From: a virus
DNA length: 48,676 nucleotides
IMG/VR virus record: IMGVR_UViG_3300030085_003924
Location: 1-48,676 of that record
Direction: 5' to 3' (one strand)
A program made the position numbers and the translations under genes. Numbering within the stretch: position 1 is the first letter of the stretch; each line of letters starts with the position of its first letter. Below the pieces are notes generated by a model. The model was given only the letters and a program-made list of their open reading frames with translations, was not told the origin of the DNA and did not search any database. Shown here piece by piece: positions 2,584 to 24,774 of the stretch.

Positions 2584-2598
2584 ACAATGGAGAATTAT

Positions 2599-3582
2599 AT
2601 GCATAAATTAGAATACTTGTGGTTGGATGGTTGTAGTCCAACACAAATAAGATATAAAACAAAAGTAGTAAAAGATTTTGGTAAAAAAGATGCACCCATT
2701 TGGGGATTTGATGGAAGTTCAACAGAACAGGCAGATGGAAACAATTCTGATTGTGTTTTAAAGCCAGTTAGGTACTATCCTAATCCATTAGAGGTGAATA
2801 GTTCAATAGTATTGTGTGAGGTATGGAATGTAAATGATACACCACATGAAACAAATACACGAAGATTATTAGAGGAAACCATTGCAGATTTAGAGGGGTA
2901 TTATGATGAATGGGTGGGTTTTGAACAAGAATATACATTGTTTGATGGTTCAGTACCATTAGGATGGCCATCAAATGGAGAACCAGCTCCACAAGGGGAT
3001 TATTATTGTGGTAGAAATATAGGTGAAAAGATTTCAAGAGAACATTTAAATGCTTGTATCGAAGCTGGTATCAGTATTTGTGGTACAAACGCAGAAGTGA
3101 TGTTAGGTCAATGGGAATATCAGATTGGTGCAGGTGGTTCAATACATATAAGTGATGATTTATGGGTTGCTCGTTGGTTATTGGAAAGAATTTGTGAGAA
3201 ACATGATGTATCAGTTTCATTACATCCAAAACCAATCGAAGGAGATTGGAATGGTGCAGGTTGTCATACCAATTTCTCTACAAACTATATGAGAGATGAA
3301 GGTGGGTATTTAGAGATAATAAATGCATGTGAAAAATTAGGTGAATTTACAAAAGAACATTTAAAAGAGTATGGTGAAGATAATGAAAAACGACTTACTG
3401 GAGAACATGAAACTTGTTCTATTGACGAATTCCGTTACGGAGTTTCAGATAGGGGAGCTTCAATTCGTATTCCGTGGCAGGTAGAAGTAGATGGTTGTGG
3501 TTATTTAGAAGATAGACGACCATCATCAAATTGTGATCCATACAAGGTTAGTGCTAGATTAATTAAAACAATATGTAAATAA
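2599..3582 (+). CDS. Glutamine synthetase, eukaryotic-type (GSII)
   Basis: It makes glutamine from glutamate, ammonia and ATP in the cytoplasm. The protein of about 327 residues has the GSII signatures in order: DGSST at ~38-42, EQEYTLFDG at ~109-117, APQGDYYCG, EVMLGQWEYQIG at ~165-175, GAGCHTNFS near 219 and RPSSNCDPY near 307. It is slightly shorter than typical GSII enzymes of 340-370 residues. An ATG at 2587 is also in frame, but GGAGA at 2589-2593 is a good ribosome site for the ATG at 2599, and 'MHKLEYLWLDG' matches the usual family N-terminus. All catalytic blocks look intact. GSII in a phage-like segment is uncommon. It may boost nitrogen assimilation for nucleotide synthesis. Confidence 0.93.
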   Translation: MHKLEYLWLDGCSPTQIRYKTKVVKDFGKKDAPIWGFDGSSTEQADGNNSDCVLKPVRYYPNPLEVNSSIVLCEVWNVNDTPHETNTRRLLEETIADLEGYYDEWVGFEQEYTLFDGSVPLGWPSNGEPAPQGDYYCGRNIGEKISREHLNACIEAGISICGTNAEVMLGQWEYQIGAGGSIHISDDLWVARWLLERICEKHDVSVSLHPKPIEGDWNGAGCHTNFSTNYMRDEGGYLEIINACEKLGEFTKEHLKEYGEDNEKRLTGEHETCSIDEFRYGVSDRGASIRIPWQVEVDGCGYLEDRRPSSNCDPYKVSARLIKTICK

Positions 3583-8391: not shown

Positions 8392-8911
8392 AGCTTGGTT
8401 AGAAAAAAAGATAATGTGTGGTTTATGTAACTTTGGTTGCTGTAACCACAATTCTTTTCATGTCGAGATTACAGAACAAGAACAAGAAAAGTATAGAAAA
8501 AAGTTTGGATTGGATTTAGAACTCGAATGGTCACAAGATGGATGTTGTGATTTGTTGAGTGAGGATGGAAGTGGTTGTAGTTTAGGAAATGAAAGACCTA
8601 TATTTTGTAAAACATATCCATTAGTAGAGAATAAATCAGGTCGTGTGGTGATTAACAATTGGGCATATTTACATTGTCCAAAACCTGATAACTATGAGTT
8701 GGATAAGGTAGTGGATGGGAAATATCACTACAAGTTGAAAAAGAAACATAAGAATAAACGAGATGAATTAATACTTGATGATAAGATGGAAAATGTGGTC
8801 AAACAGATTTGGTTACAATCAAAGGAAGCACTTATTGAAACCTATGGTGAAGAATTTTATGAAAAAATAAAAAATGAAATGAAACAAACAATTAAACACG
8901 AGTTCTTTTAA
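8363..8911 (+). CDS. YkgJ-like cysteine cluster protein
   Basis: It has the Cys pattern of the YkgJ/UPF0153 family, thought to bind zinc or an iron-sulfur centre: 'CGLCNFGCC' near residue 20, 'GCCDLLSEDGSGCSLG' near 55-70 and 'RPIFCKTYPL' shortly after. The C-terminal third is Lys-rich and helical. It has 182 residues. The function of the family is unclear. Some members lie beside modification enzymes, and here it overlaps the PLP enzyme by 29 bases and abuts a radical SAM gene, so a shared pathway is plausible. Confidence 0.75.
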   Translation: MSKSNTTFSKAWLEKKIMCGLCNFGCCNHNSFHVEITEQEQEKYRKKFGLDLELEWSQDGCCDLLSEDGSGCSLGNERPIFCKTYPLVENKSGRVVINNWAYLHCPKPDNYELDKVVDGKYHYKLKKKHKNKRDELILDDKMENVVKQIWLQSKEALIETYGEEFYEKIKNEMKQTIKHEFF

Positions 8912-9933
8912 TGAGTACAGAAACAGCCTTTTGTGATTTACCTTGGACAAGACTTAAAGTTAGTCCTGGTGGAGAAATAACTAATTGTTGTTGGCAACAG
9001 ATTGGTATTGGAAATGTGCTACATAATTCATTTGAAAGGTTGTGGACTAAAAATAATGTCTTAGAGGAGATTAGAGAAGATACGAGAAATGGGGTTTTAC
9101 ATTCACTATGTAAGGAATTTGGTTGTTGTCCATACATGAATCAATCAGAAAATCCTGAATGGAAATCTTGGTATTCTAACGAAAAAAATACTTTTGAATA
9201 TGGTGATTACCCATCGATGTTGGAACTTGATTTACCTAACACTCATTGTAATATAGGACCTGGTATTCCAAATGATGATACTAATCCTGCATGTATTATG
9301 TGTGCAAGGCGAATTGATGGTTTTGTAAATGATACTACTTCATTTTTTGATGATATAGTGGATAGAATAAAATTCTTAATGCCTCATTTGATTAGAATTC
9401 ATGTACAAGGTTATGCCGAACCATTTTATAAAGACATAGTTTTTGAGGTTTTGGACAGATTAGATTTCAAATCTTTTAAAAAAGATATATGGTTGAGTGT
9501 TATTACAAATGGGATGTATATCAATAAAAAAAGTTCTACCAAATGGATGAATTCATCTGATAGAAATACTATTATGGTTTCAATAGATGCTGGAAGTAGA
9601 GAAACATATAAGAAGATAAGAATAGCAGATGCTTATGATTTGGTAATAAAAAATATGACTGAGTATAGTAAAAATAGAGATAGTGAGAAGGATAAACTTC
9701 ACATTAATAATAATATTAACACGATTAATGTTCATGAGTGTGTTAAAATGATTGAAGATGCAGATAAAATTGGAGTGGATGTTATACAACTTGGTCCTAC
9801 GGATCCTATGGAAATGACGCAAGACATATGTGTAAATGAATCTAATAGAGAAATTTTTGAAGAAAATTTTGAACTTGCAAGATTAAGAGCAGAAGAATTA
9901 GGTGTTAATATTCAACTATTAAAGGGATTTTAA
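8911..9933 (+). CDS. Radical SAM protein, N-terminal SPASM-like domain, atypical Cys loop
   Basis: This is a predicted AdoMet radical enzyme. The N-terminus ('FCDLPWTRLKVSPGGEITNC', then GNVLHNSFERLW) is a SPASM-type domain that normally sits at the C-terminus. The radical SAM cysteines follow as C113, C128 and C131, a Cx14CxxC arrangement instead of Cx3Cx2C, caused by an insertion (GPGIPNDDTNP). 'HVQGYAEPFYKD' occupies the place of the GGEP motif, and 'SIDAGSRETYKKIR' matches the family's later strand. It has 340 residues. Its neighbours on both sides overlap or abut it. The substrate is unknown. The widened Cys loop could still bind [4Fe-4S] or could mark a changed activity. Confidence 0.75.
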   Translation: MSTETAFCDLPWTRLKVSPGGEITNCCWQQIGIGNVLHNSFERLWTKNNVLEEIREDTRNGVLHSLCKEFGCCPYMNQSENPEWKSWYSNEKNTFEYGDYPSMLELDLPNTHCNIGPGIPNDDTNPACIMCARRIDGFVNDTTSFFDDIVDRIKFLMPHLIRIHVQGYAEPFYKDIVFEVLDRLDFKSFKKDIWLSVITNGMYINKKSSTKWMNSSDRNTIMVSIDAGSRETYKKIRIADAYDLVIKNMTEYSKNRDSEKDKLHINNNINTINVHECVKMIEDADKIGVDVIQLGPTDPMEMTQDICVNESNREIFEENFELARLRAEELGVNIQLLKGF

Positions 9934-11153
9934 TGTATATAGATTATTTTGATAAATTTATGAATATGAAACCCTATCTTGAAATAAACGAGATAGAGTG
10001 GAAATATATAACAGAAACATTTGATAAAGAGGATGTGAAGGAAAGTCTCGCTACCGTAGCAATGAACTATCCACTTCCGTATCCTAATCTTACTGAGAAA
10101 TCAGCTTATAAAGATTTTATGAAACTCAAAGGGATGAAATGGAACGAAATCATGGTAGAGGGTGAATGGTACGCAAGAGAAGGAACGGAATACACATATG
10201 ATTTACTACACGATGGGAAACCATTGTATTTTAGAAGATTAAATGCTGGTAACATTTCAAGTAACTACTTTCAAATAGAAAATAGATGGAGTGTTGATGG
10301 TTCGGTAGCACCAGGACCTAAACGAACTTGGGAAACTCATAAGTTTATGACGACACTCATGGGGAGTGCATATTCACTTAAAATGACCAAGATAAATAGA
10401 AATATATTGAGAACTATGATTGGACTTCGTAAGTACATCTGTTCTCAGTTCAAACCAAATGTGGCAAAGATAATTTACGATATGTTTGAGTCAGAGAACA
10501 TACTTGACTTTTCAATGGGATGGGGTGATAGGTTAGCTGGATTCTACGCTAGTGAACACGGTAAACACTATGTTGGTTTAGATCCAAGGAAGGAAAACCA
10601 CCCTATCTACAAAGAACAATCGGAGTTTTATCAAAAACATTTGGGATTTTTTGAACACGATAGAAAGTGTGAATTTCATTGTTCACCAGCGGAAGATTTT
10701 GACTTCTCACCGTATAACGAACACTTCGATATGGTATTTACGAGTCCGCCATACTTTAGCGTGGAGCGTTATAGTTATGATGATACACAAAGTTGGGTTA
10801 GATATAAAGATATAAACGATTGGAACAAGGATTTCTTACAGACGACCTTGGGTAACTTATGGGGAAGTATTAAACCAGGTGGATATTTATTGGTAAATAT
10901 TAGTGATGTCTATACAAATTCAAAATGGTCAACCGAAAGAGGTTGGTTAGAAATCTGTAATCCTATGAATGATTTTCTCTCAACACTTGGTGAATATCAA
11001 GGTTGTATTGGAATGGAAATGGCTAAAAGACCTAATAGTGGTGGAGCTGGAACGGCAAAAACTTACGAAGGTTCAGTATGGACGGAAAAATCACTTGAGA
11101 ATAAAGAAGATAAGAAATTTGGAGAACCGATTTGGGTATGGAAAAAATTGTAA
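9933..11153 (+). CDS. DNA methyltransferase (TSPPYF type), copy 1
   Basis: This is an AdoMet-dependent amino-methyltransferase (N6-adenine or N4-cytosine). The motif I-like 'LDFSMGWGDRLAGF' lies at ~191-204 and the catalytic TSPPYF at 270-275, followed by 'SIKPGGYLLVNISD'. The N-terminal ~150 residues may provide target recognition. It is a clear paralogue of the gene at 38635-39729: both share GWG.RL.GF, TSPPYF and a following D/E-E/D-TQS segment. No restriction endonuclease partner was seen next to either, which suggests solitary, protective or regulatory methylation of phage DNA. Confidence 0.85.
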   Translation: MYIDYFDKFMNMKPYLEINEIEWKYITETFDKEDVKESLATVAMNYPLPYPNLTEKSAYKDFMKLKGMKWNEIMVEGEWYAREGTEYTYDLLHDGKPLYFRRLNAGNISSNYFQIENRWSVDGSVAPGPKRTWETHKFMTTLMGSAYSLKMTKINRNILRTMIGLRKYICSQFKPNVAKIIYDMFESENILDFSMGWGDRLAGFYASEHGKHYVGLDPRKENHPIYKEQSEFYQKHLGFFEHDRKCEFHCSPAEDFDFSPYNEHFDMVFTSPPYFSVERYSYDDTQSWVRYKDINDWNKDFLQTTLGNLWGSIKPGGYLLVNISDVYTNSKWSTERGWLEICNPMNDFLSTLGEYQGCIGMEMAKRPNSGGAGTAKTYEGSVWTEKSLENKEDKKFGEPIWVWKKL

Positions 11154-12130
11154 ATAGTCATAACGAATGGGATACTTTAAAAGAAGTATTTGTAGGTAAC
11201 ATAGAAAATCCAAATAATCCAATCAAGGGCAAAGACCTTCATTGCATTAACTATGCCGATAGAGATAACATTGATGATGTTAAAGAGGGTTATTATCCAG
11301 AACAAGTTATAGAAGAAACTAAAGAAGATTTAGAAGAATTAGTATCTACTCTCAAATCATTTGGAGTAAAGGTTAAAAGACCAACGACACAAGATAATTT
11401 TAAACCATTCTTATCAAATGGTGAGTGGATGTCAGATGGGTATTACAATTATTGTCCAAGAGATAGTGTGATTGTTATTGGTGATACTATAATTGAATCA
11501 CCTATGGCTTTGAGGTCAAGATACTTTGAAACATTTTCATTTCGTGATGATTTTATTGATTATATGAAGAAAGGTGCAAGGTGGGTATCAGCACCAAAAC
11601 CAATACTAAGAGATGATTGTTATCAAAGAGAAAACTTAGATGAACTAACATTAACAGAGGTAGAACCAATATTTGATGCAGCAAATATCCTCAGATGTAA
11701 TGATGATATATTATACTTGGTTTCCAATACAGGTAACAAGTTAGGGGCACAATGGTTACAGAATTTTCTTGGAAGTGAGTATAAAGTACATACTTTAGAA
11801 AATATGTATAGTTATGTTCACTTGGATTCTACAATTGCTTTATTACGAGAGGGATTGTGTCTATTGAATCCTGAACGAGTTAATGAAGATAATATACCCG
11901 AACCATTAAAATCTTGGGATAAGATTTGGTGTCCTGATATGGTGGATATAGGACACTATCCTAATTACAATCACGCTTCGGTTTGGATTGGTATTAATTT
12001 ATTGTCTTTGACTGAAAATTTAGTTATATGTGATGAGAACCAAACAGAGTTACACAAGGAATTATATAAAAACAATATAGAAGTTATTCCTATGAAATTA
12101 AGACATGCCAGAACACTTGGTGGTAGTTAG
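11138..12130 (+). CDS. Amidinotransferase, truncated just before the catalytic cysteine
   Basis: It resembles glycine/inosamine amidinotransferases (AGAT, StrB1), which move an amidino group from arginine. The catalytic Asp is in FDAAN (D180) and the His in 'YVHLDST' (H228). The C-terminal 'RHARTLGGS' aligns with the family's HARTLGGGFHC, but a TAG stop follows at 12128-12130, directly before the Phe-His-Cys that carries the nucleophile. As written the protein of ~330 residues should be inactive. The start is the ATG at 11138, overlapping the methyltransferase end. The next frame opens at 12127 with a glycosyltransferase lacking its own start, so a deletion probably joined the two genes. Confidence 0.85.
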   Translation: MEKIVNSHNEWDTLKEVFVGNIENPNNPIKGKDLHCINYADRDNIDDVKEGYYPEQVIEETKEDLEELVSTLKSFGVKVKRPTTQDNFKPFLSNGEWMSDGYYNYCPRDSVIVIGDTIIESPMALRSRYFETFSFRDDFIDYMKKGARWVSAPKPILRDDCYQRENLDELTLTEVEPIFDAANILRCNDDILYLVSNTGNKLGAQWLQNFLGSEYKVHTLENMYSYVHLDSTIALLREGLCLLNPERVNEDNIPEPLKSWDKIWCPDMVDIGHYPNYNHASVWIGINLLSLTENLVICDENQTELHKELYKNNIEVIPMKLRHARTLGGS

Positions 12131-13413
12131 GTGAACTTGAAAAGTTATGTATCAATTCGTGGATAGAGAATGGTTATGAATTTAATCTTTGGTTGTACGA
12201 TGATATAGAAGTGCCTGAGGGCGTGATAGTGAAAAATGCAAGTGATATTATTTCTATTGATGAATATTTTACATATGATGATGGAGTTTCTAAAGGAACT
12301 GCAGTTGCATTTTCAAATTTATTTAGGTCTAAATTATTATATCAAAGGGGTGGATTGTATATTGATTTAGATGTTTTGTGTTTGAGGCCATATAATTTTG
12401 ATAAACGATTTGTATTTTCGAGACAAATAGATAGTGAGTGGGGTTATCATGTTGCAACATGCATTATATATAGTGAAAATACCGAAGAAGAAATATTTAA
12501 TGATTGGTCGAATAGGATTATAGAAACAAAGAATGTCAGTTCAATCGCTCACGGAGATTTAGGGCCACATTTATTTACAAGGTTGATTGAATTATATAAT
12601 TTAAAAAAGTATGTGTTACCAAAAAGAAATTTTTGTCCAATTGATTGGGAATCTTACAAGGATGTACTTGAATCTAATTTTGATTCATATGGTGTTCATT
12701 TATATAGAAGTTTATGGGATGACGAGGACTATAAAAATATAAATAAATTAAAATCTCAAAATAGTATAAAAGACAATCTAACAAAATGGACTTATCCTGG
12801 AGCTTGGAGTAAAGATGGAGATGAGTGGGATGACCAAGCCATATTCTGTAATCAACCTTATGAAAAATGGAAAAGTTCATTAATAGAAACTTTTATTAAA
12901 GATAACTCTAATAATAGTGTTCTTGAAATAGGATGTGGACATGGTAGATGGAGTGAACATCTTATTAAATTTGCTAACAATGTTTCTTTGGTAGACTTAA
13001 ATGGAGAGTATGTAGATTTTTGTAAAGATAAATTTAAAGACAAGGAAAATGTAACTTTTATTAAAAATGATGGAAAGAGTTTAAGTGATATAAAAGATAA
13101 CTCAATAGATTTTATATGGTCGTATGATGTATTTGTTCATATGGATAAAAAAACTCAATTTGATTATTTTTTAGAATTTAAAAGAGTTTTAAAAAATGAT
13201 GGTAAGTGTATAATTCATCACACGATTGGAGATGTAACCAAGAGTGTAGAACCAGGATGGCGTTCAATAATATCACGAGATGAATTTAATAAAATGTTAA
13301 GGGATTCAAATCTTAATTTAAATCATCAGACTCAAAGTTGGGGTAAAAATGATGAATTTAATTGTAAATTATTTAATGATTTTATATCTGTAATTGGTAA
13401 ACATAATGATTAA
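12127..13413 (+). CDS. Glycosyltransferase (DXD sugar transferase)-methyltransferase fusion, 5' end missing
   Basis: The N-terminal half is a Gly_transf_sug-type glycosyltransferase. The frame is open from 12127 and encodes 'LGELEKLCINSWIENGYEF', a conserved first segment of this family, yet no ATG, GTG or TTG occurs in frame before the TTG at 12193, which lies inside the domain. The DXD is in YIDLDVLC (Asp codons at 12364 and 12370). The C-terminal half, from about 12,900, is a Class I methyltransferase with 'VLEIGCGHGRW' (12919) and 'SYDVFVHMD'. The ~10 residues before LGELE are missing, together with the end of the upstream amidinotransferase. Translation may fail or start weakly at 12193. 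The segment is very AT-rich. Confidence 0.75.
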   Translation, partial: LGELEKLCINSWIENGYEFNLWLYDDIEVPEGVIVKNASDIISIDEYFTYDDGVSKGTAVAFSNLFRSKLLYQRGGLYIDLDVLCLRPYNFDKRFVFSRQIDSEWGYHVATCIIYSENTEEEIFNDWSNRIIETKNVSSIAHGDLGPHLFTRLIELYNLKKYVLPKRNFCPIDWESYKDVLESNFDSYGVHLYRSLWDDEDYKNINKLKSQNSIKDNLTKWTYPGAWSKDGDEWDDQAIFCNQPYEKWKSSLIETFIKDNSNNSVLEIGCGHGRWSEHLIKFANNVSLVDLNGEYVDFCKDKFKDKENVTFIKNDGKSLSDIKDNSIDFIWSYDVFVHMDKKTQFDYFLEFKRVLKNDGKCIIHHTIGDVTKSVEPGWRSIISRDEFNKMLRDSNLNLNHQTQSWGKNDEFNCKLFNDFISVIGKHND

Positions 13414-24544: not shown

Positions 24545-24555
24545 AAGGAGTCGTA

Positions 24556-24774
24556 ATGTATTACGAAGCACAGGTTGTATTTACTGAAGAAATTGATACT
24601 AAAAATGGAGTTAAGGAAAAGAAAGTCCGACGCAACTATTTAGTAGAGTGTGATTCAGTATCAGTAGCAGAAGCAAAGGTAAATGAGTTTTTAAAAGATT
24701 CAGCATTTTTCTTTGAAGTAAAGGTAGCAAAAGAATCTAAAATAGTGGATGTAATAGAACAAAATCATGAATAA
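24556..24774 (+). CDS. DUF4494-like small protein
   Basis: The 72 residues ('MYYEAQVVFTEEI', then 'YLVECDSVSVAEAKVNEFLK', then FFEVKVAKES) resemble DUF4494, a small alpha/beta family known from Bacteroidota and their phages. The function is unknown. A strong ribosome site (AAAGGAG) precedes it. It overlaps the ClpP-like gene by eight bases. Confidence 0.55.
   Translation: MYYEAQVVFTEEIDTKNGVKEKKVRRNYLVECDSVSVAEAKVNEFLKDSAFFFEVKVAKESKIVDVIEQNHE

Follow-up and report, generated by a model that had tools for sequence, protein, structure and literature searches.

Why does an amidinotransferase gene stop just short of its active-site segment at the very point where a glycosyltransferase (GT) frame opens without a start codon? 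This question is raised by a locus within bases 1–48676 of a 74,674-base IMG/VR virus record, itself a single metagenomic record; this 48,676-base stretch is hereafter called the window. The source is a marine T4-like phage, marked by a DNA polymerase B and a sliding-clamp relative, both encoded in the window, which also carries a cluster made up of a long series of glycosyltransferase, methyltransferase and radical SAM genes. Most other gene borders in this glycan cluster are exact, with overlapping ATG starts. The amidinotransferase/GT junction is unique among the consecutive junctions of the cluster, being the only one at which the next gene has neither a start codon nor its expected N-terminus at the previous stop.

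Three further features of the window are recorded here in their own right. An 842-aa ORF at 16–2544 contains a TonB-dependent receptor plug domain (E about 1e-13), which is unusual for a phage. A glutamine synthetase match (Gln-synt_N and Gln-synt_C; E about 1e-9 and 4e-15, respectively) lies at 2587–3582, just upstream of the DNA polymerase. Lastly, a 222-nt gap without a listed ORF interrupts the tightly packed cluster at 24545–24766; it is partly conserved in related contigs and is possibly regulatory.

Two genes truncated at one point

The first of the two genes (11138–12130, + strand) encodes a StrB/AGAT-type amidinotransferase that is truncated at its 3′ end, identified by its match to 1bwd, by the intact protein of contig L008 and by 37 intact relatives. 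Its best start is the ATG at 11138, which corrects the start assigned earlier and overlaps the end of an intact N6/N4-type methyltransferase gene (9933–11153, + strand). Upstream again, a radical SAM/SPASM gene (8911–9933) is absent from the contig of L008, a clean cassette insertion exactly at the TTTTAATG gene border, between two genes.

The best solved-structure match of the amidinotransferase is StrB1 (1bwd; E 8.4e-99), with residues 3–328 aligned to residues 3–328 of 1bwd, such that similarity extends over the catalytic fold and ends at 328. The intact L008 protein aligns beyond this residue, through GGFHCATLDVRR of 1bwd, the HC segment. A preliminary description of this DNA placed the stop of the gene directly behind the peptide RHARTLGGS and proposed that the active-site segment had been lost. 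Both points are borne out: the TAG occupies 12128–12130, directly behind that peptide, and among the viral relatives the 3′ end was readable in 37, every one of which goes on into an HC-containing segment, with no truncated copy among them. The window ORF stops before this C-terminal segment and so is missing the last 11 or more residues, the catalytic Cys included. AGAT has three catalytic residues, including Cys407 of the human enzyme (PMC3684758), of which the missing Cys would be the counterpart when positions are equated by alignment. Judged by sequence, the window gene is a truncated remnant and no working member of the StrB/AGAT type. No second amidinotransferase copy was found in the 74.7-kb record, an empty search result that alone shows little. 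StrB/AGAT-like amidinotransferases occur in 42 viral contigs (L002–L043), and their slots within the glycan cluster vary among related phages. These phage enzymes may plausibly serve to add guanidino groups to a glycan of the phage or its host.

The second gene is the coding remnant of a DXD-type glycosyltransferase (Gly_transf_sug, PF04488; 12127–12765, + strand), without a start codon and its first residues, as recognised from Pfam (E 1.5e-7; score 32.5 bits, above the cut-off of 23; the DXD being DLD in LYIDLDVLC) and from relatives. The frame opens at 12127 with LGELEKLCINSW (TTA GGT GAA CTT GAA AAG TTA TGT ATC AAT TCG TGG), immediately downstream of an in-frame TAG (12124–12126). It had been noted earlier that no start precedes 12193, and indeed the first canonical start is the TTG at that position; no in-frame ATG is found before 13141. 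Intact GT relatives have about 12–15 extra N-terminal residues as well as a start codon and begin VNGFWIGE-like, the VNGFW-type segment being found in 5/5 intact relatives and, like the start codon, lacking in the window. Identity to the window GT is 72% for L052, 61–63% for L008–L011, 56% for L056 and 36–39% for L049/L057. The intact GT of L052 reads MDMEKIVNGFWYGSE-LGELEKLCINSW, in which the portion after the hyphen is identical to the first 12 residues in the window. An AlphaFold model of this L052 protein was poor (mean pLDDT 43.8) and was set aside.

Behind the GT, a SAM-dependent methyltransferase domain (12766–13413, + strand) is fused in frame, as defined by a domain match and by the GT of L008, which stops at the corresponding point. 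There is no in-frame canonical start between 12613 and 12988 and the domain therefore shares the start loss of the GT, so that its translation is probably impaired too. The passage of the GT into this domain constitutes a second irregular joint (12730–12800), where the L008 GT stops (NKLK-TGA); no start belonging to the methyltransferase itself was found there. A 32-mer at the GT end is absent from other viral contigs. Neither the GT-methyltransferase ORF nor its methyltransferase part retrieved any close relative from viral contigs; the GT relatives above were found solely by GT alignment and per-record searches. The methyltransferase part has no phage match and one weak bacterial relative.

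The AGTT joint and how it may have arisen

The change from one gene to the other can be placed to the base. In blastn, nine amidinotransferase-bearing records match up to precisely position 12128, and the L052 record matches from 12125 onwards. The regions similar to the two partners thus share exactly 4 nt, AGTT (12125–12128), common to the amidinotransferase of the relatives and to the intact GT of L052. This abrupt switch between two unrelated sequences with few shared bases is that of an illegitimate joint. When all cuts near the two gene ends were paired, four or more shared bases were seen in 2.8% of random joins; microhomology is thus suggested, not proven. We consider it likely that the joint is the scar of a non-homologous, microhomology-sized recombination in the hypervariable glycan-gene cluster of this phage. 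On this reading, a DNA end lying within the 3′ portion of the amidinotransferase gene was joined at AGTT to the 5′ portion of a GT gene; this would have deprived the amidinotransferase of its catalytic-Cys tail, and the GT, along with the fused methyltransferase domain downstream, of the start codon and first residues. Both gene products are probably inactive as a result.

Two routes could have led to such a scar: deletion from an order amidinotransferase–X–GT, which in L008 would amount to about 840 bp, or a crossover by which an amidinotransferase came to lie before a GT in the methyltransferase-proximal slot. Here, L052 and L008 serve as stand-ins for the parents. The junction had initially been read as a deletion scar left by the loss of a short stretch. 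A DNA joint that took away the amidinotransferase tail and the GT head is supported by the intact relatives and does explain both defects; the shortness of the lost stretch and deletion as the sole route are not established. In the same slot, L008–L011 carry an amidinotransferase, a fucosyltransferase-like gene and an intact GT in that order, and the two AGTT points in this arrangement are 840 bp apart with one complete gene between them. Therefore, the lost piece need not have been short: a single deletion from an L008-like order would give the window joint with removal of one whole gene. No copy of the L008 fucosyltransferase-like gene was found in the 74.7-kb record, although this empty result alone shows little.

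Deletion is favoured by the last ~250 bases of the truncated amidinotransferase and the upstream methyltransferase gene, which are closest to L008, the contig with the right gene order. However, the GT is nearer to L052 (72%) than to L008 (61%), and hence vertical descent from an L008-like parent with a simple deletion does not account for everything. The gene that comes after the N6/N4-type methyltransferase, and whose start overlaps the methyltransferase 3′ end in each case, is the amidinotransferase in the window and L008–L011, and a GT in L052 and L049/L057. In L052, the GT thus lies directly behind the methyltransferase, in the slot that the amidinotransferase occupies in the window, and the window amidinotransferase and L052 GT both begin on a common methyltransferase end, ATGGAAAAAATTGTAAA. 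Given this common slot and end, and the closeness of the GT to L052, a non-homologous crossover between an amidinotransferase-bearing and a GT-bearing phage is possible and would leave an identical joint. Neither route is singled out by the data, with deletion slightly favoured.

The surroundings of the joint are themselves mosaic. Alleles similar to those of three related contigs follow one another along the amidinotransferase, which is 94–100% like L003 at the 5′ end, 98–99% like L002 in the middle and 91–96% like L008 at the 3′ end. Moreover, its slot differs: it lies behind the methyltransferase in the window and L008–L011, behind a homologue of 37207–37662 in L002–L006, L012 and L013, and elsewhere in L007 and L014. 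Taken together, the patchwork of alleles and the differing slots point to a locus in active recombination. For the truncated gene, dN/dS (0.125 against L003 and 0.099 against L002) is like that between the intact L003 and L002 genes (0.095). Purifying selection on what is left of the gene is thus as strong as before, which indicates either a recent event or an artefact. We infer that the event was recent and arose in the phage.

Other explanations for the joint

An artefact would take the form of a chimera, produced during library amplification or metagenome assembly, that links two co-occurring phages or two widely separated stretches of a single phage. The window comes from one IMG/VR metagenomic record, and no other viral contig contained the junction 40-mer, although near-identical records may be hidden from the search, so there is no independent copy of the joint. 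There is no sign of decay beyond the joint, and an artefact would look alike. Against this, the neighbouring gene junctions around 12125–12128 are intact and just 4 nt are common at the joint. A de Bruijn assembler needs a k-mer overlap far above 4 nt, which is too short to join two sequences by itself. Thus the joint was probably present in one or more real molecules, though not necessarily natural ones, and we regard a chimera as unlikely.

Recombination also accounts for the locus better than natural working ends, whereby a Cys-less amidinotransferase homologue would have another role and the GT-methyltransferase would be translated from a non-canonical codon or from TTG 12193. Both frames are otherwise open with low dN/dS, values for L056 read in a wrong frame being disregarded, and from TTG 12193 the GT-methyltransferase ORF still has 406 codons. 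However, the HC segment is missing in 0/37 relatives and its Cys is a catalytic residue of AGAT (PMC3684758), whilst a start at TTG 12193 drops the conserved INSW...YEF segment. A degenerate scan for amidinotransferases with the same truncation yielded no other, the one match (L080) being due to chance. Because the lost parts are universally conserved, natural function of the truncated proteins is very unlikely. It is more doubtful still that the joint is a step in the birth of a new arrangement, in which a Cys-less amidinotransferase-fold protein and a GT-methyltransferase fusion would both have some function in the glycan pathway.

A programmed −1 frameshift producing an amidinotransferase-GT fusion protein is very improbable, in keeping with the doubt voiced in the preliminary description: the GT frame does open one nucleotide ahead of the amidinotransferase stop, as would be expected of a −1 shift, but no X XXY YYZ slippery heptamer precedes the stop and no stimulatory structure lies downstream, the RNA around the site folding no better than shuffles (z 0.48), and, moreover, a TAG lies immediately upstream in the GT frame, the fusion protein would still be without the catalytic Cys and no relative has such a fusion. 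Recoding of TAG is likewise unsupported: TAG terminates 9 of the 56 listed window ORFs, and reading through this one would lead into neither conserved protein segment.

Significance and comparison with known systems

A recombination scar of this kind is a known one and an ordinary by-product of the gene shuffling that is common in such phages, and the wider picture is unchanged by it. What the joint offers is an instance, resolved to the base, of the broken by-products that arise when cassettes are shuffled in phage glycan clusters, with the intact partners in related contigs. It also cautions annotators against recording either ORF as a functional enzyme.

Hypervariable, glycosyltransferase-rich islands in marine T4-like phages are exemplified by the host recognition cluster of pelagimyophages (PMC7029224). 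The window resembles this system in combining T4-like replication genes with a variable cluster of tens of kb, rich in glycosyltransferase and sugar-modifying genes. Unlike the pelagimyophage cluster, it also contains StrB-like amidinotransferase, radical SAM and methyltransferase genes, and it adjoins the DNA polymerase and clamp. At the level of the protein, the amidinotransferase can be aligned with StrB1 inosamine-phosphate amidinotransferase (1bwd) and AGAT over its whole length up to the joint, and differs from them in being without the final catalytic-Cys segment. Most surviving joints of illegitimate recombination lie at gene borders, whereas the joint in the window lies inside two genes and breaks both. 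The illegitimate-recombination joints behind phage genome mosaicism are discussed in PMC2327257, and the window joint is like them in that similarity breaks off sharply where only a few bases are shared, within a stretch patched together from alleles of related phages.
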